IMG/VR virus record: IMGVR_UViG_3300042905_005483 | Location: 1 to 64,000 of that record | Strand: one strand, 5' to 3' | Source of the DNA: a virus | DNA length: 64,000 nucleotides | Shown: positions 11,146-61,681 of the stretch, piece by piece | Numbering within the stretch: the first letter of the stretch is position 1 | Layout of the letters: the number at the start of each line of letters is the position of its first letter | Notes under the pieces: model-generated | What the model saw: only the letters and a program-made list of their open reading frames with translations | What the model was told of the DNA's origin: nothing | The model's database searches: none | Translations under genes and position numbers: made by a program

Positions 11146-11823
11146 CTATTTTCTTGTGGTCATTTGCCGGAGAAGCGTGACCATTTCTTCTGTTTTGCCG
11201 TTTTGCAGTTTTAGCGCGGCAAACTGATCGGCCAGTCGCTTTGTCCGGTTAATGATTGTTTGATTGATGTCTTCTTTCTTGCCCTCTTCGAGATCGTACA
11301 CCGCGTTAAACATTGCGGGGTCGTCCGAAAAATCCTCCATGTTTGGGGAAACGCGCCCCATGCGAAGCGCAATACGTAAAATATCTGGCGGATTCATCAG
11401 CCCTTCAGAATCTAGCACCGCGCCAATGTACGCCCGAATCTCGTCGTTAAAAGGTTCCAGTTCGTTGTCTTCGGGCGGGTAGATAATCATCGCCTCTGTG
11501 ATACCCCACGCTACCTCTTCGGCGTCGGCTGGGTCCCACATGTCGGGGCGGTAGTCATCCCCCGACAGCACATTGCAGAACGTAATAAAGTCCGGCAAGC
11601 TGCGATAAAATTTGTCGGTGGTGAGCATCTGCACCGCGACCATGAGCTTGTCCAGCGACCCCTGTGGCAAGTCGACGTCAAACTCCTGCTCTATTTCAAG
11701 GGTAGCAGTAGTCGGGTCCCAGTCAAGCGCCTCAGTGCCAAAGGCGTCCAAATAGGCCGCTAGCAGCACAGAAGCAAAGGTTTCAGGACTCCGCCACATT
11801 TCCTGCATCGGGTTTTTCGACAT
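11146..11823 (-). CDS. Hypothetical protein
   Basis: 225 aa, acidic, helical, no recognised domain. ATG 11823 has SD AAGGA. The gene ends 8 nt before csrA and overlaps the upstream 169-aa gene by 41 nt, so it may form an operon with csrA (12292 to 10494). Confidence 0.7.
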   Translation of the reverse strand: MSKNPMQEMWRSPETFASVLLAAYLDAFGTEALDWDPTTATLEIEQEFDVDLPQGSLDKLMVAVQMLTTDKFYRSLPDFITFCNVLSGDDYRPDMWDPADAEEVAWGITEAMIIYPPEDNELEPFNDEIRAYIGAVLDSEGLMNPPDILRIALRMGRVSPNMEDFSDDPAMFNAVYDLEEGKKEDINQTIINRTKRLADQFAALKLQNGKTEEMVTLLRQMTTRK

Positions 11824-15529: not shown

Positions 15530-18500
15530 TCACGCTAGCGCTGCGTTTTTTATTGCAAGCCGCAGTGCGGGGTTGGTGTTTACAGCCGCAATAATTTGTT
15601 GCAATAACGCTTCAGTTAATGTGCTCGGCCCTGCTGGCCCTGTGGGGCCTGTCGCGCCCTGCGGCCCCGGCGAGCCCGGCGGTCCGCAAGGACCTATCGG
15701 ACCTGTCGGGCCTAATGGGCCGCTCGGGCCAGTTGGTCCGGAAGGGCCTGCTGGTCCAGACGGCCCAAGCGGTCCTTGTGGGCCTTCTGGACCGTCGGCG
15801 CCTTGAACACCCGGAGGACCCTGCGCCCCCTGCGGCCCGGCGTTACCTATTTGACCTTGCGGTCCTTCTGGACCCTGCGGACCTTGAACACCTTCAGGAC
15901 CCTGCGGCCCAATAGGCCCTTGCGGCCCGCTCGGCCCTGTAGCGCCCGTCGGCCCTGTCGGCCCTGTTTCGCCTAAACCACGCGGTCCAGAGGGCCCTGC
16001 TGGCCCTGTAGCGCCCGTTGGGCCCGTGGGCCCCTTCGGACCGCTTGGGCCTGACAGGCCCGTTACACCCTGAAAGCCGCGTGGCCCTGAAGGCCCTGTA
16101 GGCCCTGTCGGCCCTGTCGGACCAGACGGCCCGAGAGGCCCTTCTACGCCTTGCGGCCCAGCGACCCCGGTAGCTCCAGTTGGCCCTGTAGGCCCTGTCG
16201 GACCAGACGGTCCCGTCGGCCCAAGCGGGCCTTCTATACCTTGCGGGCCATCCGGGCCTGTGGCGCCGGTAGGTCCTGTCGGCCCTGTCGGACCAGACGG
16301 TCCCGCCGGGCCGGTTGGGCCTAAAGGAATTTCAAAGTCGAGCAATACGTCGCCGGCCGTATCTTCTCGGGCGGTAACCTTCGCCGCGCATGTGATATCC
16401 AGCTCGGAGCAAATGTACGCATTATTTGGACCTGTCGGCCCGGTGAGGCCGATTGAAATCACGTTGCCAACATCCACGCGGCGAGCTCGCGGTAAATTAA
16501 ACCCGAGATGCTTATCGCCGCTGAACGGGTCCGTACTCACCATCACAATCGGGTCATCTATCGGGTCTATGGCAAACGAGTTTGACGTGAACGCTATTGC
16601 TCGCGGCAACGAGAAGTTAATGTCGTAGCCGCTGTCGTCGCCGTTTGCGATAAGCGCAACAGTCGGGTCGTTTACGGGGTCTAGTGTCGTCGTAGTACCA
16701 ATCGCAAGAGACTTAGCGCCCGGCAGGGTGAAAGTAAATTCGTAATCGCCGCCGCCGGTTTGCGCTAACTCTACAGCAGGGTCATCGCCCGCACCCCCGA
16801 TATTGGTGGCGGCAACTGTAAACTCTGGCGCCCGCGGCAGACTAAACGTCAAATCTACGTCACCGGCTGTGGTTGTTTGTGATACCGATGGATCGACGTT
16901 AGGCGCTACAACCGTGGTTGGTTGAACGTTGATCTCGGCTGCTCTGGGAAGCTTGAAGTCAACGGTGACGTCGCCGGCTTGAATCTGGAAATCGACTTCT
17001 GGGTCTTGATCGGGATCAAGGACCTCGAAATCTCCTTTTGTAACAGTTGCTGCGCGCGGTAATGAGAACGTTAAATCTACGTCGCCGGCGTTGGGTTGCC
17101 CGACAGCTGTAGGCACAGTATCTGGCGTTAATACCGTGACTGGTTTTACATTTATTTTTGCCGCGCGCGGTAGTTTGAAGTCGAGCGTTAGGTCGCCCTG
17201 CGCGCCGCCGCCCTGCGCGGTAATATCAGGGTCGATGTCCGGCGCGACAATCTGTACGTTTCCTTTGGTTACGTACGGTGCGCGCTGCAGATAAAACTCT
17301 AATATTGGTGCTTCTGGTGTACCCGAGACGTTTAAGTATGGTTGCGCCGGCGGGGTTACAAGCGGCTGCATAACAAATGCGCTGATGAGCGGTAGCGGGC
17401 CGGCCGGGCCTGAAGGACCAGACGGGCCAGTCAGACCCGGCGGACCAGTAACGCCCGTGAATCCGCGCGGGCCAGTTGGTCCTGTCGCGCCGGTTGGGCC
17501 GCACGGACCCGTCGGACCGCGGGGACCCGTGGCGCCGCTAGGGCCGGTGTAACAAAAGACCGTGCCAGAACTTCCGCCGCTTCCGCTGCTGCCGCCGTAG
17601 CCGCCACCACCACCACCGCCACCGCCAGCACTCGCCCCGCTGCTGCATTCAACCGTGTTGAAATCAAGCGTAAGCGTTAACTCAGAGTACGTGTCTTTGT
17701 CGACAATTGACAATTCACCGCTGGCGACACTGTCTGGCGTAACCGTGACTTTACCGGCCTTCAACGGGTTGGTTACAATTTTTACTTTTTGCTCGACAAC
17801 CTTGGGTGAGGTATTGCAGCCCGCGCCGCCTGATTTTATCTCTTCTTCAATCTGTACTTCTCTGATCGCGCAATAGGTGTCGTTTGCGTAGCCACCGTAG
17901 CCGAAGTTGTCGGTGTCACACCCAGTGATTTCAACCTCTTTTACTTTGTACACACTCGACGCGATGTTGAGCTTTGTCTCCGCGGATATCCAAAACTTGC
18001 ACTTATCGCTTTGGTCTTGTTTGACGTACAGCTTGGTTTTGTCGTCGCCGCCACAGCCATCGCCGTCGACGGGGTCGTAGTATTTTGCGCTTAAAGACTG
18101 CGATTCGGGAGGGCCACCGGAGTAACTGCCGGATATGTCGTATACGAAATACGGCTTGCACCACGGCCACTCAATAGTGAAGTCTAAGAACGTGTTGTCG
18201 AAGTACCCGGCGTTGCAGTTCTGGCGCGGCGTTAACCGAAACACCGGTTCTCGGTCGATATCGACTTTCCTCAAATCGATTGTGCCCACCTGAATTTTTA
18301 TGCACGGTGGTTTCGGTATTTTGATTTGCAGATCAAAGTCAACATTGAAGATACACTGCGGCGGGCGGTTGGTGCCGGTGTTCAGCTGATGCTGCGTAAT
18401 CGAATTAAAATAAAGCTGCGTGCTCGGCACTTCGTAGTCGGCTCGCACCGTTTGGCGCCGAATAGTAATCTGCGGGCACGGTGGGCGAGGAAGCTTAAAA

Positions 18501-28463: not shown

Positions 28464-30374
28464 TTAGCTGCCTGCGTCAATGATGATGCCTGATACGCGT
28501 AAAATGCCGACTTCTGGATACGTGTCTGATACGCTGTAAGCGCGTTGAATTGTTACAAGTACCGTGTCGCCGGGAGCAACAGTAAATAAACCGCTATCGC
28601 GCTGAACGACTTGATCGCGCAGCACTAAAATACTCTGCCCGTTGCTCGGGAACGCAAGCGCAGTGTCGCTTGCGGGCAGCGGGGTTGCGCCCGTTCCGGG
28701 AACGTTTATTTTGCGGTACGTAAGAGTAAGCGCGGGTAGTGCTGTTGTGTTGCCCGTCAATGCGCCGCCGCGACCAAACAGCTGCACACGTATTTTCATC
28801 TGTAGCGACGCCGGCGCGCTTAAGCTTACGTACGGGATGTTGAACCGCAGCCGCAGCGACGACTCTTGGGCGCCCGGAAGACCAAGATAAGGAATATCTT
28901 TGTACAACCGCTCGACGGCGTCGTTTAAGCGCACAATCTGCGGAGCCACTTCGCGTTCAGCGAACTGGTTGTTGAAATTTATCCGGACTAAACCCTGATG
29001 CGCTAATACATTTTCACCGGCCGAGAAATCGAACGCTGTTTTTTCTGCATTTGTAAGCGGCCGCGTACGCGTGCTGGTCAGGCTAAGCTGGGTCAGGTTG
29101 TGGGCGACGACACCCTCAGCAACCCATATTTTTTGCAGCTTATTTTTTTCGATTACGTCACCAAGAACTTTGCCGTTTGCGTCTACGCCAAGCGGCGCGC
29201 AATCGACGACCTGCAGATTCAGGTCTAGTTCGAGGTCGCCAGTGTTTCCGGGCTCGCCATCGCAATTTAAAACTTCGATCGGGCTTTCTGGCGCAGGAGC
29301 CAGACTTGTTACCACTGTGCGGTCGTTTCCGAGCAGCATGCGAAGGAAAATAACCGTGACACGCATAGCCTCTGAACGCGGGCACTCGGCACGATTGGCG
29401 AGCACCTCTGTAATGTTATTTATTCCAGCTCCTGCCACAGCCGGAGAGGCCGGCCACGGTACGTCTGTCTGGCAGTCGCTCATCCACCAAATGCCATTTA
29501 CGTCGCAGACGGCTAAACCCGCAGGACCGAGCGGTATTTCCGTGCCGCCGACAAGCGACGTTCCTTTGTCCCAAAGCATGGACACTGATTGAATTGGCAC
29601 GGGCGGCCACACCCGAGAAAGCGCCGGGTGTTTCGAGATGTTGTAACCGAACACTGCGCCAGCCGGAGCTTTGCCGTTAAACACAGTGTGATTTGCCGGC
29701 AGCCAACCCGGAAGAGCCGACGACGGCGATACAATGGCTACCTTGTTGTTTGAGACCGCTTGTCCTGTGCCGGCAGGGGCGGCAATAAGATCAAACCTGT
29801 AGTGCGTGTGGTCGTTCGTGTAATCGCGCAGCTGCGGCATTACGATTACGCGTAACGCGTCAGAGCAGTTATCCCGCGGGCCCTGCACGTAGCACACGCT
29901 TACCGTAACAGGCGGTTGTTGTTTTGTTAACTTTCCCGGCTCACTGGCAGACAGAAAATACCGACCCGGGGCGACTGTTTGTCCGACAGACGCATTCAAA
30001 TTTTCAAATGTCACCAAACCGCGGAGAACGATGTCTCCCCGGTCAGCTGCTTTTTTGCGCAAACACATGCCGACGCACTCAGCCGACGGCAGTACCACAA
30101 TAGCTTGTGTTGCTGTATCGACTTCTGTAGCTACGAGAGCACGTTCGTATCGCTGCGCGACGTGATTCCAAAAGACAGGTTGTCCCGGTAATACGTCTGA
30201 CGCAATCGTCGCATCAACGTCAAATAGCGCACGGCCGGCGTCTGAAGCGTCGAGCCTGTCCTTGAGGTAATCGGTGCGGTCCTCTAGCGTCCGGTCGGGG
30301 CGGTTAACTACCCCGGCATCGACGGGCTCTCCCGGCGTAACGTGTCGAATGTTGTGAAGCCAATTTCCGGACAT
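28464..30374 (-). CDS. Large tail-fibre/baseplate-attached protein
   Basis: 636 aa, beta-rich. N-terminus MSGNWLHNIRHVTPGEPVDAG then NRPDRTLEDRTDYLKDRLD resembles the baseplate-anchoring start of several myovirus fibres. The C-terminus (about 500-636) is a beta sandwich. ATG 30374 is inside a CsrA-type hairpin (30369-30382), and an SD GGAGG lies six nt upstream. Likely the first fibre translated after the baseplate genes. Confidence 0.6.
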   Translation of the reverse strand: MSGNWLHNIRHVTPGEPVDAGVVNRPDRTLEDRTDYLKDRLDASDAGRALFDVDATIASDVLPGQPVFWNHVAQRYERALVATEVDTATQAIVVLPSAECVGMCLRKKAADRGDIVLRGLVTFENLNASVGQTVAPGRYFLSASEPGKLTKQQPPVTVSVCYVQGPRDNCSDALRVIVMPQLRDYTNDHTHYRFDLIAAPAGTGQAVSNNKVAIVSPSSALPGWLPANHTVFNGKAPAGAVFGYNISKHPALSRVWPPVPIQSVSMLWDKGTSLVGGTEIPLGPAGLAVCDVNGIWWMSDCQTDVPWPASPAVAGAGINNITEVLANRAECPRSEAMRVTVIFLRMLLGNDRTVVTSLAPAPESPIEVLNCDGEPGNTGDLELDLNLQVVDCAPLGVDANGKVLGDVIEKNKLQKIWVAEGVVAHNLTQLSLTSTRTRPLTNAEKTAFDFSAGENVLAHQGLVRINFNNQFAEREVAPQIVRLNDAVERLYKDIPYLGLPGAQESSLRLRFNIPYVSLSAPASLQMKIRVQLFGRGGALTGNTTALPALTLTYRKINVPGTGATPLPASDTALAFPSNGQSILVLRDQVVQRDSGLFTVAPGDTVLVTIQRAYSVSDTYPEVGILRVSGIIIDAGS

Positions 30375-30382
30375 CCTTGTCC
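30369..30382 (-). promoter_or_regulatory. CsrA-type hairpin covering the start codon of the 30374 fibre gene
   Basis: Minus-strand GGAC-AAGGAT-GTCC: 4-bp stem, ANGGAN hexaloop, C-G closing pair. It contains ACAAGGAUGU, the full core of the CsrA SELEX consensus as I recall it. The AUG starts in the loop. Binding would block initiation. Confidence 0.6.
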
Positions 30383-31041: not shown

Positions 31042-32745
31042 CTATTGGCAGGTGCCGGATAAAAGTCGGGCAAAAGCGCCTTCATCGATTACGTACGTAT
31101 CGTCAATATTGTCGCTGGCTGGTTCGGCGCCCGTGAACGTAGCCGGCACGTCGTCGAGCATTTTGTCGCCGTCAATTTCCTCTGTTTTTCCTGACAGCTC
31201 AAACACAACAATCATGGCCGTCTGCGGCGGAATTAAGCGCCGCAGGTGCCGGATATTATGTAAATTGAGCGCGTCTACGCCAAGCGCAGCCACCACTATT
31301 CTAACAACAAAAACGTTGTTTCTGAGCACGTTTTCAATTAGAAACCGCATAGGGTTAATATTCTGCGGTAAATCGTCTATTGTGGGCTCGTCGGTGGCCT
31401 GCTCGCGGCGGTCTAGAATGTGCGCGAGCGTCCCGGTCCGCTTGTTTTTCACAACGCACGGGTCGGCTGCGGCTTCCGCCAACGCTATTCCGCGCGCGTG
31501 CAGCATGTCAAAGAACTGCGTCGCGTCAGCCGGGAAACCGCCTAATTTAAACTTTACGTACGTGTAGCCGGTTGGGTGCTCCGTCGTTATCTCTAGCGGA
31601 ATAACTTTGTTCTCAAAAACAAGGTCACCCAAAAAGCACGACGGTAAAAACCCGTTGTCCACGGCGAGAGCCAGCAGCTCTTTGCGGGGATTGGCGATCG
31701 TGGTTATGACTATCCCGCTGTCGTTTTCGGTGACGATCGGCTCGAATATCTGAGTGGCCAACTCGTCGCTTTTTGTGGCGGGTAAGATGTTTTCGTCACC
31801 CGGCATTTTGTAAGAGTGAAGATTGAAAAACTCCAGCACCTCGAAACAGCGGACAAGCTGCGACCCCGCGGCAAGAACGGCGCCAACGCTGACGAGCGGT
31901 TCGGCGGGTTCTTGAAACCGATACACGGCCGAATCTGAGGCAATAACCAACCCACGGCTGTCGTAAAAAACAGCTTCGATGGTTTCTTTATTTTCCGCCG
32001 TCAGCGGTATGCCGCACAGAGCCGAAAACGCCAAGTCGATGTCTTTAGCCGTTGCGCCGCCATTCACGAGCCCGTTGGTAATGGCGTTCATCAGTAGCTT
32101 TGAGTTTTCACTGCTACTCAGTTGTAAACCAAGCGCATAAGCAAATTGCGTAAACACGTACTGGTAGTCAAAGTCGCCGCAAAACCCCCACAGCGTGATT
32201 TCTTCATCGTCCGCAGCTTCTTGCACTGGCGCCCGCAGAAAGCTTTCATTGTTGAACGGGTCTGCCGTAAACCGTATAGCTCCGGCAACTGGGTCAACAA
32301 TAAAGTCTACTCCGCCAAGCAGCACTGAGGTGGGAAACACAATTTTGTTGAAAATCTGCTGCACATTTTTTAGAGTTGGCGGCACTGGAAAAGAAAACAA
32401 CGCGCTTTCAGGTGGCACATCAAATTGCAGCTTGCCATTAAAATAAATGTCGGGTTGATCGAACGCGGCGGCGTTGATTTGATTGCTGTTTAGTTCACTC
32501 TTGCGAATGACGATTGGTACCAGCAACTCTTCGTGAAAAATTGGGACTTCGTAGCGGCTCGTGGCCGCAACGACTTCTAGCAGATTACGATGCGCCTGCG
32601 CTGAACCAAGGCCGAGCGCTGTCACGTAAGACAGCAACTGGTCCGATCCGGTGTAGGTCTTTGCCCAGAAGGTGCCGAGTACAGTTAACAAATTACGGGC
32701 CCGGTCAAAATCTGAACCGGGGTAGACGTATTCTGGTTTTGCCAT
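31042..32745 (-). CDS. Baseplate protein (unassigned wedge or fibre-anchor)
   Basis: 567 aa. N-terminal 60 residues helical (FDRARNLLTVLGTFWAKTYTG), then mixed alpha/beta; contains FFDMLHARGIALAEAA at about 415. Directly downstream of baseplate J, a position often held by tail-protein-I-like wedge components. I see no domain I can name. C-terminal 70 residues are acidic. Confidence 0.6.
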   Translation of the reverse strand: MAKPEYVYPGSDFDRARNLLTVLGTFWAKTYTGSDQLLSYVTALGLGSAQAHRNLLEVVAATSRYEVPIFHEELLVPIVIRKSELNSNQINAAAFDQPDIYFNGKLQFDVPPESALFSFPVPPTLKNVQQIFNKIVFPTSVLLGGVDFIVDPVAGAIRFTADPFNNESFLRAPVQEAADDEEITLWGFCGDFDYQYVFTQFAYALGLQLSSSENSKLLMNAITNGLVNGGATAKDIDLAFSALCGIPLTAENKETIEAVFYDSRGLVIASDSAVYRFQEPAEPLVSVGAVLAAGSQLVRCFEVLEFFNLHSYKMPGDENILPATKSDELATQIFEPIVTENDSGIVITTIANPRKELLALAVDNGFLPSCFLGDLVFENKVIPLEITTEHPTGYTYVKFKLGGFPADATQFFDMLHARGIALAEAAADPCVVKNKRTGTLAHILDRREQATDEPTIDDLPQNINPMRFLIENVLRNNVFVVRIVVAALGVDALNLHNIRHLRRLIPPQTAMIVVFELSGKTEEIDGDKMLDDVPATFTGAEPASDNIDDTYVIDEGAFARLLSGTCQ

Positions 32746-32753
32746 AGTTGCAC

Positions 32754-34409
32754 TTAGTCGGTAAAGCCGGCGGTGGCTGTTGTTATGGCGATATCCGCTA
32801 CGCCGACGAGAAACGCGGTAGTTCTCCCGGTGACCAAGCGTTGCGGGTCGTTAGGTATTGTGAGCAGCGTATTGTCTCGCAGGTAAGCAATCGTGCCGTC
32901 AGGGCGGTGAATTTTTCCAAACATATCAATCTCGCGAATCGCTTGTCGGCCGCTGAGATACTTGTGCGCGGCGCCGCTAATAATCGACGAATGCAGTTGT
33001 CCGCCAAAACCAATATTGCCGATAGCTTTTACAATAGCTAGTTTGATTTCAGCGATTGTCGAATCTAAGACGGGCTCGCTGGCTTCCGTTTGAATCGTAA
33101 ACGATATTCTGGTGAAACACGGTACAGCCGCTTTTACCAGAATGTCTGTGCCCCGCGCCCGCGTGTCACGAGACGTTAAAAAGTCATGAATCTCGGCGAC
33201 AAGCGGCATGCTGCGTGTAGTGACTGCGTACTGCGCCGTCGTCACGTTCGGGATAAGGTTATTCTCCGTGGTTGGCAGCACGGTTTCGTCTTCAAACTGA
33301 ATGATCGCGTACTGATAGCGCGTGTATGCGCTCTCATGTAAGTACTTGATGTCAGGAACGTATGCGATGTCTGTTAAATTAGCGCCGCGGTCTTCCATTA
33401 AGATTTTGTGCGCTTCATCGTCCTTGCTGGGAGTCGTAACGCGAACAATGTCGTAAAAACCGGGTGTGATCTCGCGGTCAAGGTTGACTTGCCACACGCT
33501 GCCTACGTCGCCGGGGCCTATGTACTTCGCCGGCAGAAAGTTTGTTACCTCTTGCCCTGTAAAATTTGTCTGCACGTATACGTCTACTTTGCCGCCGCCA
33601 GAAATAGGAAACAGGCCGTGCTGGTCTCTTTGCTGTTCTGGGTCGCCGCACCCAAGCACAGAGCAGTGCAGCATATTTTCAAACTTGCTTTGCGCCCGTA
33701 TTAAAGCCTCGTAGCTCTTGCGCCCGCCGATTGTCTTAGCGGCCAAACCAGTGGCTAGCTTTTGTAAGTATTCTTCGTTGGTGCTCGCGTCACGGCCGGC
33801 AATAAAGTCGCTCGCAGCAAAAAGTTCTAATACGTTGTTCTGAGCGAAATTTGGAATCAGTTTCGTGCCGCGGGGTATGTTACCGCTGGCGCCTACCTCC
33901 ACGGCCTGCACTGTAATGTTCGCCGCGTACGTGCCGTCACCAACAACAACGAGCTTTTTGTCGTTGTCGTCCCGCGGTTGCGCAGTTGGCGGTATAAGCA
34001 CAAAGTCGTTCGTAGTCACAAATTCAATATCGTCGGCAGAGAGTATTACCCCGGCCGCAATGTTTGTCAGCACCGGCAGATTAACCACAACTGTCACAAG
34101 CCCGGTTGCTTCTGTGCCACTGTCTCGCACAACGTTGTAGTTCGACAAAACGCGGTCAACGAGTTCTACTTCTGCCAGCGCCGGGTTTTTTATGATCTGC
34201 CAAAGACTATTGCTCTGCAGTACGAGATCGATGTTTTCTCGAACGGCTGCGGCCAGCACGCTATTGAAATACAGCACAAGGTCGTGAAACGCTCCGCGGG
34301 TGAGCTCGACTTCTGGGTGGCGCTCCTGCATTAGTTGCGTGAACGTCGCAAAAATCGCCTCGACCTTTTCGGGCGCTAACTCGTCTAGTTTCGTGATTTC
34401 TAGTGGCAT
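32754..34409 (-). CDS. Baseplate J-like wedge protein
   Basis: 551 aa. The gpJ/T4 gp6-like core is recognisable: ITVQAVEVGASGNIPRGTKLI, then LELFAASDFIAGRDASTNEEYLQKL, preceding a helical and a C-terminal beta domain (ILVKAAVPCFTRISFTIQ). It forms the baseplate wedge ring that triggers sheath contraction. N-terminal helices (ELTRGAFHDLVLYF) fit the family. Downstream of a gp25-like gene, as expected in myoviruses. Confidence 0.85.
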   Translation of the reverse strand: MPLEITKLDELAPEKVEAIFATFTQLMQERHPEVELTRGAFHDLVLYFNSVLAAAVRENIDLVLQSNSLWQIIKNPALAEVELVDRVLSNYNVVRDSGTEATGLVTVVVNLPVLTNIAAGVILSADDIEFVTTNDFVLIPPTAQPRDDNDKKLVVVGDGTYAANITVQAVEVGASGNIPRGTKLIPNFAQNNVLELFAASDFIAGRDASTNEEYLQKLATGLAAKTIGGRKSYEALIRAQSKFENMLHCSVLGCGDPEQQRDQHGLFPISGGGKVDVYVQTNFTGQEVTNFLPAKYIGPGDVGSVWQVNLDREITPGFYDIVRVTTPSKDDEAHKILMEDRGANLTDIAYVPDIKYLHESAYTRYQYAIIQFEDETVLPTTENNLIPNVTTAQYAVTTRSMPLVAEIHDFLTSRDTRARGTDILVKAAVPCFTRISFTIQTEASEPVLDSTIAEIKLAIVKAIGNIGFGGQLHSSIISGAAHKYLSGRQAIREIDMFGKIHRPDGTIAYLRDNTLLTIPNDPQRLVTGRTTAFLVGVADIAITTATAGFTD

Positions 34410-52161: not shown

Positions 52162-52177
52162 AAGGCCTCCATGCCCT
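52162..52177 (-). promoter_or_regulatory. CsrA-type hairpin over the sheath SD
   Basis: Minus AGGGC-ATGGAG-GCCTT: 5-bp stem (one G-U pair), hexaloop AUGGAG, SD GGAGG at 52166-52170, 7 nt before ATG 52158. Same loop as at 61027 and 61651 with a different stem sequence. Confidence 0.7.
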
Positions 52178-61026: not shown

Positions 61027-61042
61027 AGAACCTCCATGTTCT
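61027..61042 (-). promoter_or_regulatory. CsrA-type hairpin over the capsid SD
   Basis: Minus AGAAC-ATGGAG-GTTCT: 5-bp stem, hexaloop AUGGAG, SD GGAGG (61031-61035), 8 nt before ATG 61022. Contains ACAUGGAGGU, fitting the A/U-C-ANGGAN-G-U/A RsmE consensus. Confidence 0.72.
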
Positions 61043-61053
61043 ATTAGTTAGAG

Positions 61054-61647
61054 TTAGGCGCTAGCCGCCTGTACGCCGTTCCAGTTGGCCGCGCCCGGGA
61101 GATAGACGCACCAGAACGAAAGGGCTTGAATCCCGTTGTGATTCTTGCCAGCACCGCTGGATACAACGCCGACTACCGGCTGCGCATACTGCGTAACGCT
61201 GTAGTTCGTCAGAAGACCGTCGGTAGCAGCTACGGTGCTGCCAGCGCCAGTTTTCGTAGTTACCGAAAGCAGATCGCCGGGCGTGTAGGTGTTAGCAGTC
61301 ACGAACTCCGTCGAGGAGATTTCGTAACCGCCAGTCGCTACGAGGCCGGACATCTTGCCGGTCGGCGCAACTGCGATGTGCATGAAATTCGCCGATGTCA
61401 TCGGCGAGTTGTAACCGGGGTTACTTACGTCGGCGTCGTCCGAACCGTTAAGCAGGAAGACCGCGGGGCACGTCTTGTGCGCACCCGGCACGAACTCACC
61501 GTTAGTGTTAACGTGGACAACGCGACCGCGCTTTACGTCAAACGTGACGGTAGTCGCAAGCTTCGCCGAATAATCGAGCGAGGCCATGTCGAACCAGCCC
61601 TTTTTGACGTCTAAACCGTGCGCAAACATTTGCTCAGGAACAGCCAT
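61054..61647 (-). CDS. Head decoration protein
   Basis: 197 aa, beta-rich (KLATTVTFDVKRGRVVHVNTNGEFV; ALSFWCVYLPG). Directly precedes the capsid gene, as in many phages with a gpD-like decoration protein that cements the shell. SD lies in a CsrA-type hairpin. Confidence 0.65.
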   Translation of the reverse strand: MAVPEQMFAHGLDVKKGWFDMASLDYSAKLATTVTFDVKRGRVVHVNTNGEFVPGAHKTCPAVFLLNGSDDADVSNPGYNSPMTSANFMHIAVAPTGKMSGLVATGGYEISSTEFVTANTYTPGDLLSVTTKTGAGSTVAATDGLLTNYSVTQYAQPVVGVVSSGAGKNHNGIQALSFWCVYLPGAANWNGVQAASA

Positions 61648-61650
61648 TGT

Positions 61651-61666
61651 TAGACCTCCATGTCTA
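61651..61666 (-). promoter_or_regulatory. CsrA-type hairpin over the decoration gene SD
   Basis: Minus TAGAC-ATGGAG-GTCTA: perfect 5-bp stem, hexaloop AUGGAG, SD GGAGG (61655-61659), 7 nt before ATG 61647. Contains ACAUGGAGGU. Confidence 0.72.
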
Positions 61667-61681
61667 AGTAGTTTTTAAGGA

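Follow-up and report, generated by a model that had tools for sequence, protein, structure and literature searches.

The binding site of CsrA/RsmE proteins is the hexaloop ANGGAN (PMC7652899; also PMC3791407), and selection experiments (SELEX, systematic evolution of ligands by exponential enrichment) gave the consensus RUACARGGAUGU, in which AC pairs with GU and which lay in a six-base loop in 44 of 55 selected sequences (PMC7652899). csrA genes are carried by about 1% of phage genomes (30/2517; PMC7366521). The role of phage CsrA in the life cycle was called not previously tested in 2025, when host manipulation was proposed and knock-down of the csrA homologue of phage PTXU04 was reported to yield smaller plaques (PMC11879866). 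Here, we describe a 64-kb stretch of DNA (the window), part of the 101.5-kb IMG/VR phage record IMGVR_UViG_3300042905_005483, in which the Shine–Dalgarno (SD) sequences of the genes for the major capsid, capsid decoration, and tail sheath proteins each emerge from the loop of a hairpin of this shape. These hairpins are quite probably CsrA-type translational operators on virion mRNAs, most likely recognized by the phage's own CsrA.

Hexaloop hairpins over the Shine–Dalgarno sequences of virion genes

The window is mostly transcribed from the minus strand, and it is on this strand that we found all three hairpins that a preliminary description of the DNA had placed upstream of the virion genes (Table 1). 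The 5-bp stems given there hold for capsid and sheath, while the decoration stem has 6 bp. GGAG is located in the loop, and not in the helix, in each leader, and a second, tandem hexaloop is absent from all three. On both strands of the window, these SD sites are the only ANGGAN hexaloops with stems of at least 5 bp, and CATGGAGG is found 4 times where 0.62 would be expected. The complete 101.5-kb record contains five start-proximal ANGGAN sites with stems of at least 5 bp, compared with 0.43 when the 3′ flanks were re-dealt among the sites inside the genome (p ≤ 0.0005) and with 0.20 on average for the 55 other loop geometries. The AUG within the loop was considered as an alternative start codon; it is in frame for the capsid gene, yet several relatives have ACG instead, and it therefore appears incidental.

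A capsid-based scan yielded 62 related loci, the relatives being environmental contigs; a 205-kb contig (G001/L004) matches the window record and encodes an identical capsid protein. Stems of at least 4 bp are present in 53 of 66 capsid leaders and 53 of 64 decoration leaders, as well as in 13 of 14 leaders of an upstream gene for a 789-amino-acid (aa) protein. Sheath leaders reach 4 bp in 21 of 50 cases and at least 3 bp in 41. For 14 neighboring genes, the hairpin is found in just 0–3 members each. Conservation in relatives, on which the preliminary description had staked its proposal beforehand, is thus observed.

The three stems of the window alone would be thin evidence for covariation, which is supplied by the relatives. 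While the loop of their capsid leaders is AUGGAG or ACGGAG, the stem varies widely (GGAAC/GUUCC, AGAAC/GUUCU, AAGAC/GUCUU, GGCAC/GUGCU, CGAUC/GAUCG). In alignments that included members without a hairpin, leaders not having been chosen for possessing one, covariation was 0.450 for capsid, 0.440 for decoration, and 0.531 for sheath, compared with 0.141, 0.163, and 0.203 after shuffling (0/500 shuffles for each leader). In the true register it was at least two-fold higher than in every slid register. When changes were mapped on a capsid plus decoration tree, both sides of a pair had changed with pairing retained on 11 (capsid), 5 (decoration), and 4 (sheath) edges, against at most 3, 1, and 2 such edges in shifted registers on the same tree. 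Combined, this amounts to about 20 independent compensatory double changes, whereas no shifted register gives more than 5; the changes are therefore not one change inherited repeatedly, and the compensatory stem evolution claimed in the preliminary description is borne out.

Loop geometry was compared for start-proximal ANGGA motifs in 15 genomes, over 56 loop geometries and with stems of at least 5 bp. The hexaloop register holds 69 sites, versus mostly 5–17 (maximum 27) in the remaining geometries, and the registers that would place the SD in the helix are not the enriched ones. With re-dealt flanks, all near genomes lie above chance, with p ≤ 0.0005 except for G018, where p is 0.034 at 5 bp and reaches 0.0005 at 4 bp. 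A distant relative, G032, has 19 sites, against 0.69 in the geometry comparison and 1.07 with re-dealt flanks, and contig G035 has 10 against 1.14 with re-dealt flanks.

Loop identity was scored without requiring A at position 1. Among 107 strong hairpins, the loop begins with A in 83, compared with 29% at unpaired SDs. C-G closes 59 of the 107, and it does so in 34 of 36 capsid and 30 of 34 decoration leaders. The pair that follows is A-U or U-A in most capsid and decoration leaders and G-C in sheath. The loop A and the closing C are not accounted for by SD function. Loop position 6 differs from G in a third of the strong hairpins, and AAGGAC and ACGGAC loops are also found. The hairpins thus share with CsrA/RsmE sites a six-base loop containing GGA, A at its first position, closure by C-G, and overlap with the SD or start codon. 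They match the published ANGGAN motif, as the preliminary description had recognized, with binding itself being predicted, and the case for CsrA-type sites on virion genes is strong.

Two explanations without CsrA bear on these features. The first is an intrinsic structure of the T4 type, in which the SD is blocked in early read-through transcripts while late transcripts start inside the hairpin, no protein being involved; the T4 decoration gene soc has such a structure (PMC3014915). There, however, SD or AUG is helical, whereas here a six-base loop keeps GGA unpaired, and enrichment is not comparable for geometries placing it elsewhere. Nor would an intrinsic block select for A at the first loop position, closure by C-G, or the tandem non-SD loops described below, and we regard this explanation as very improbable. 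A slightly slimmer chance still is given to a RegB-like phage endoribonuclease that would cut the loop GGAG and switch the genes off. It is at odds with the variable sixth loop position, including the AAGGAC and ACGGAC loops, and leaves the tandem spacing unexplained; no RegB match was found in 14 of these genomes, a weak point given that control genomes also gave none.

Table 1. Features of the window (positions in the 64-kb stretch).
Feature	Position	Strand	Details
csrA gene, 72 aa	10919..11137	−	Candidate trans-acting RNA-binding protein; PF02599, E = 1.2e-17, 64 bits vs cut-off 27
Fourth candidate site	30369..30382	−	GGAC-AAGGAU-GUCC, 4-bp stem; overlaps start codon (30374) of 636-aa gene
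Tail sheath gene, 1069 aa	48949..52158	−	PHROG tail sheath, E = 8e-10 and 2e-8, C-terminal part
Sheath hexaloop hairpin over SD	52162..52177	−	AGGGC-AUGGAG-GCCUU, one G-U; start codon 52158
Major capsid protein gene, 308 aa	60096..61022	−	phrog_2522 major head protein, E = 8e-4
Capsid hexaloop hairpin over SD	61027..61042	−	AGAAC-AUGGAG-GUUCU; GGAGG formed by loop and closing G; start codon 61022
Capsid decoration protein gene, 197 aa	61054..61647	−	Structure model (predicted local distance difference test, pLDDT, 82) and Foldseek
Decoration hexaloop hairpin over SD	61650..61667	−	UUAGAC-AUGGAG-GUCUAA, 6 bp; start codon 61647

The identity of the three virion proteins is supported by structural and profile comparisons. 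A modest-confidence model of the capsid protein, whose PHROG match is weak, has HK97-fold phage capsid proteins as its top Foldseek matches (E down to 3e-5). Phage outer-shell, capsid-stabilizing, and head-fiber proteins are the best matches of the decoration model, with a probability of up to 0.99 but weak E-values (0.009 at best). The sheath protein also has a sub-threshold match to Pfam Phage_sheath_1. Inserted at residues ~438–544 is a domain whose matches to decoration and tail-fiber PHROGs (E 1e-16 to 1e-18) are better than those of the sheath part to sheath families. Among the contigs, IMGVR_UViG_3300032321_001270 (205 kb; L021 and L062) has a capsid start at both ends, with differing leaders and sequence, and may join two related phages, since the two starts are non-identical.

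A wider gene set and tandem hexaloops

The preliminary description had proposed a regulon of three virion genes. The evidence supports operators of the CsrA type, but the set is larger. Among 172 ortholog groups compared across seven near genomes, with a stem of at least 4 bp counted as a hairpin, five groups present in all seven bear it in most members: capsid and decoration (7/7 each), the 789-aa and 253-aa proteins (6/7 each), and sheath (4/7). Two smaller groups with 3–4 members have it in 3/4 and 2/3. Neither the 253-aa nor the 789-aa protein obtained a function from Pfam or PHROGs. The stems of the 253-aa gene (G001 180896 and orthologs) differ strongly, as in GGCAU/AUGCC, GGUGC/GCACC, and GCGC/GCGC. 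The set further extends to csrA itself in G032, where about 30 genes have hairpins of at least 4 bp.

A fourth candidate site in the window, at the start of a 636-aa gene (Table 1), is an exact match to the SELEX core ACARGGAUGU. Its hexaloop is kept in six of the seven near genomes (five AAGGAU, one ACGGAU), while G003 has a 5-nt loop, and the sequence upstream of GGAGG diverges while the hexaloop stays. No covariation was detected among the seven near genomes; for this reason, and because the site overlaps both SD and coding sequence, we consider it supportive only.

Some gene starts in G005, G015, G018, and G032 bear tandem hexaloops with a spacing of 18–45 nt. A second, upstream hexaloop is present in 10 of 144 genes with an SD hexaloop versus 11 of 904 without (odds ratio 6, p = 1.6e-4), and the upstream loops, for example ACGGAU, are not used as SD. 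This layout is the one that would be expected for the two-faced CsrA dimer. In G015 (32030–32056, minus strand) and G018 (87759–87786, minus strand), two adjoining 7-bp ANGGAN hexaloops 26–27 nt apart directly precede the start codon of a gene for a 203–234-aa protein, and their first stem differs between the two genomes by compensatory changes. Separately, G018 (6538, minus strand) and G003 (33385, minus strand) contain 14–15-bp hairpins with an ACGGAG loop that enclose the start codon of a gene whose product begins approximately M-D-I-T-I-K-I-K-D-I-N; in both phages it lies about 5 kb downstream of csrA. These stems are longer than those of the virion-gene hairpins. Decoy RNAs resembling CsrB/RsmZ, defined as at least four hexaloops within 200 nt, were not found in the scanned genomes.

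The phage csrA gene and the probable ligand

As the preliminary description had stated, the phage encodes a CsrA protein (Table 1), which also matches the CsrA-like family phrog_9500. Aligned to RsmE from the RsmE–hcnA complex (2jpp), it keeps L4, R6, VR of the VRxG motif, and the arginine equivalent to R44. A search of IMG/VR with this protein returned only its own twin. Each of the 11 contigs of the near clade that reach 190 kb carries csrA. In G032 (L141), the gene (11200–11745, minus strand) encodes two CsrA domains in one 163-aa chain, a tandem fusion, and its SD bears AUCGA-AAGGAG-UCGAU with a 5-bp stem, suggesting possible autoregulation by the fused dimer. Conversely, hairpins are lacking in the most distant csrA-less relatives (L057/G041, L058, and L061), with 0 sites in G041 versus 1.08 with re-dealt flanks. 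This co-occurrence makes the phage CsrA the likely ligand.

A different ligand, either another phage RNA-binding protein or a virion protein in an autoregulation of the coat type, is the least probable of the explanations that we weighed. Autogenous control through hairpin operators has precedents in phages, as for T4 gene 43 (PMC3014915), and one loop is common here to unrelated virion genes. However, the same loop also stands on functionally unrelated genes and in distant relatives, and it coincides with the motif of a known ligand whose gene the phage carries.

Several observations weigh against control by a phage CsrA. The 46-nt leaders fold weakly (−3.6 to −8.2 kcal/mol) and no more stably than shuffled sequences (z +0.4 to +1.0), and our case is therefore built on covariation and geometry instead of energy. 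The csrA genes of the near clade bear no clear site of their own. Two contigs without detectable csrA, G029 (162 kb) and G037 (183 kb), are nonetheless enriched in hairpins (p 0.02 at stems of at least 5 bp; 0.0005 and 0.02 at 4 bp or more), while G035 and G036 have csrA and no good capsid or decoration hairpin, the ten hairpins of G035 being on other genes. The csrA-positive G028 is significant at 4 bp or more only. Outside the clade, F116, phi297 (part), three Vibrio phages, and Providencia phage PSTCR8lys have 0–1 SD hexaloops versus 0.4–1.2 expected, and cultured csrA phages were dropped as a second example, as these six scanned genomes show no enrichment.

G029 and G037 may be incomplete, or may use host CsrA. 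The latter leads to an alternative in which the sites are real CsrA sites bound by the host protein, so that the phage reads host physiology and keeps its own csrA for another purpose such as host takeover or CRISPR silencing. Publications that propose host targets for phage CsrA, immune systems among them (PMC11879866, PMC12038007), are in keeping with this. We nevertheless judge it unlikely, given that csrA is kept in all 11 near-complete near-clade contigs, that the G032 csrA is itself within the regulon, and that the most distant csrA-less relatives have no hairpins. The "phage-internal" character claimed in the preliminary description is thus favored by co-occurrence and qualified by the two csrA-less contigs that carry some hairpins.

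In control by the phage's own CsrA, the short stem would present the A-N-G-G-A-N hexaloop, whose GGAG(G) doubles as the SD. A CsrA dimer seated there would mask the SD and keep 30S subunits from binding; because the loop overlaps the SD, control is probably repressive. Translation of capsid, decoration, and sheath, the most abundant virion proteins, and of the 789-aa protein encoded nearby would be restrained or metered until CsrA is titrated away or its level falls. CsrA binding, the binder, repression as opposed to activation, and physiological timing are the parts of this model that we infer. On balance, we favor a scenario in which the lineage captured csrA and evolved dedicated operators on virion mRNAs as a phage-internal assembly timer or stoichiometry control, elaborated in one relative to 20–30 genes and a tandem-fused, self-regulating CsrA.

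Two cultured phages provide further observations. In Escherichia phage PTXU04 (L214), two candidate hairpins with stems of at least 5 bp were found, as a raw count; gp36 has ACGCC-ACGGAU-GGCGU upstream of its start (35869, minus strand). As csrA knock-down shrinks plaques in this phage, the gp36 hairpin is a possible laboratory test case. F116 (L209) has, beside the known one, a second annotated CsrA-like regulator among its head genes (16229–16600 and 33363–33569).

Comparison with known regulatory systems

A literature search, mostly without subscription journals and preprints, found no earlier description of CsrA sites on phage virion genes. The ligand and the operator shape are known; what is new is the owner, a phage, and the targets, virion genes, although priority is not assured. 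A phage CsrA aimed at its own capsid, decoration, and sheath messages offers a concrete alternative to host manipulation and, if true, would mean that a bacterial global regulator has been turned into a control of virion assembly. The defined leaders and predicted consensus make the idea directly testable by binding and reporter assays.

One close parallel is repression by CsrA/RsmA/RsmE (glgC, hcnA, psl), with which the present system has in common the ANGGAN hexaloop, the C-G closing pair, GGA over the SD, paired bidentate sites in some genes, and a PF02599 protein in the same genome. It differs in that the targets are phage virion genes, that only one clear site, and no partner to tether it, was found in the capsid, decoration, and sheath leaders of the near clade, and that no CsrB/RsmZ-like decoy turned up in the scanned phage genomes. 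The Hag–FliW–CsrA system of Bacillus resembles it in that CsrA acts at the SD of an abundant structural subunit of a large assembly (PMC6529632), as it would here; one filament gene is controlled there, compared with several virion genes in the phage, for which no FliW-like antagonist was identified, no search having been aimed at one. Phage CsrA homologues (F116, phi297, PTXU04, and Vibrio phages) are likewise PF02599 genes in phage genomes, but host targets have been proposed for them, and six such genomes have no SD-hexaloop enrichment. Finally, the T4 e, soc, and 49 hairpins and RegB also act post-transcriptionally at phage initiation regions, including that of a decoration gene; there, SD or AUG is paired or an unrelated nuclease is at work, whereas here GGA is presented unpaired in a fixed hexaloop.
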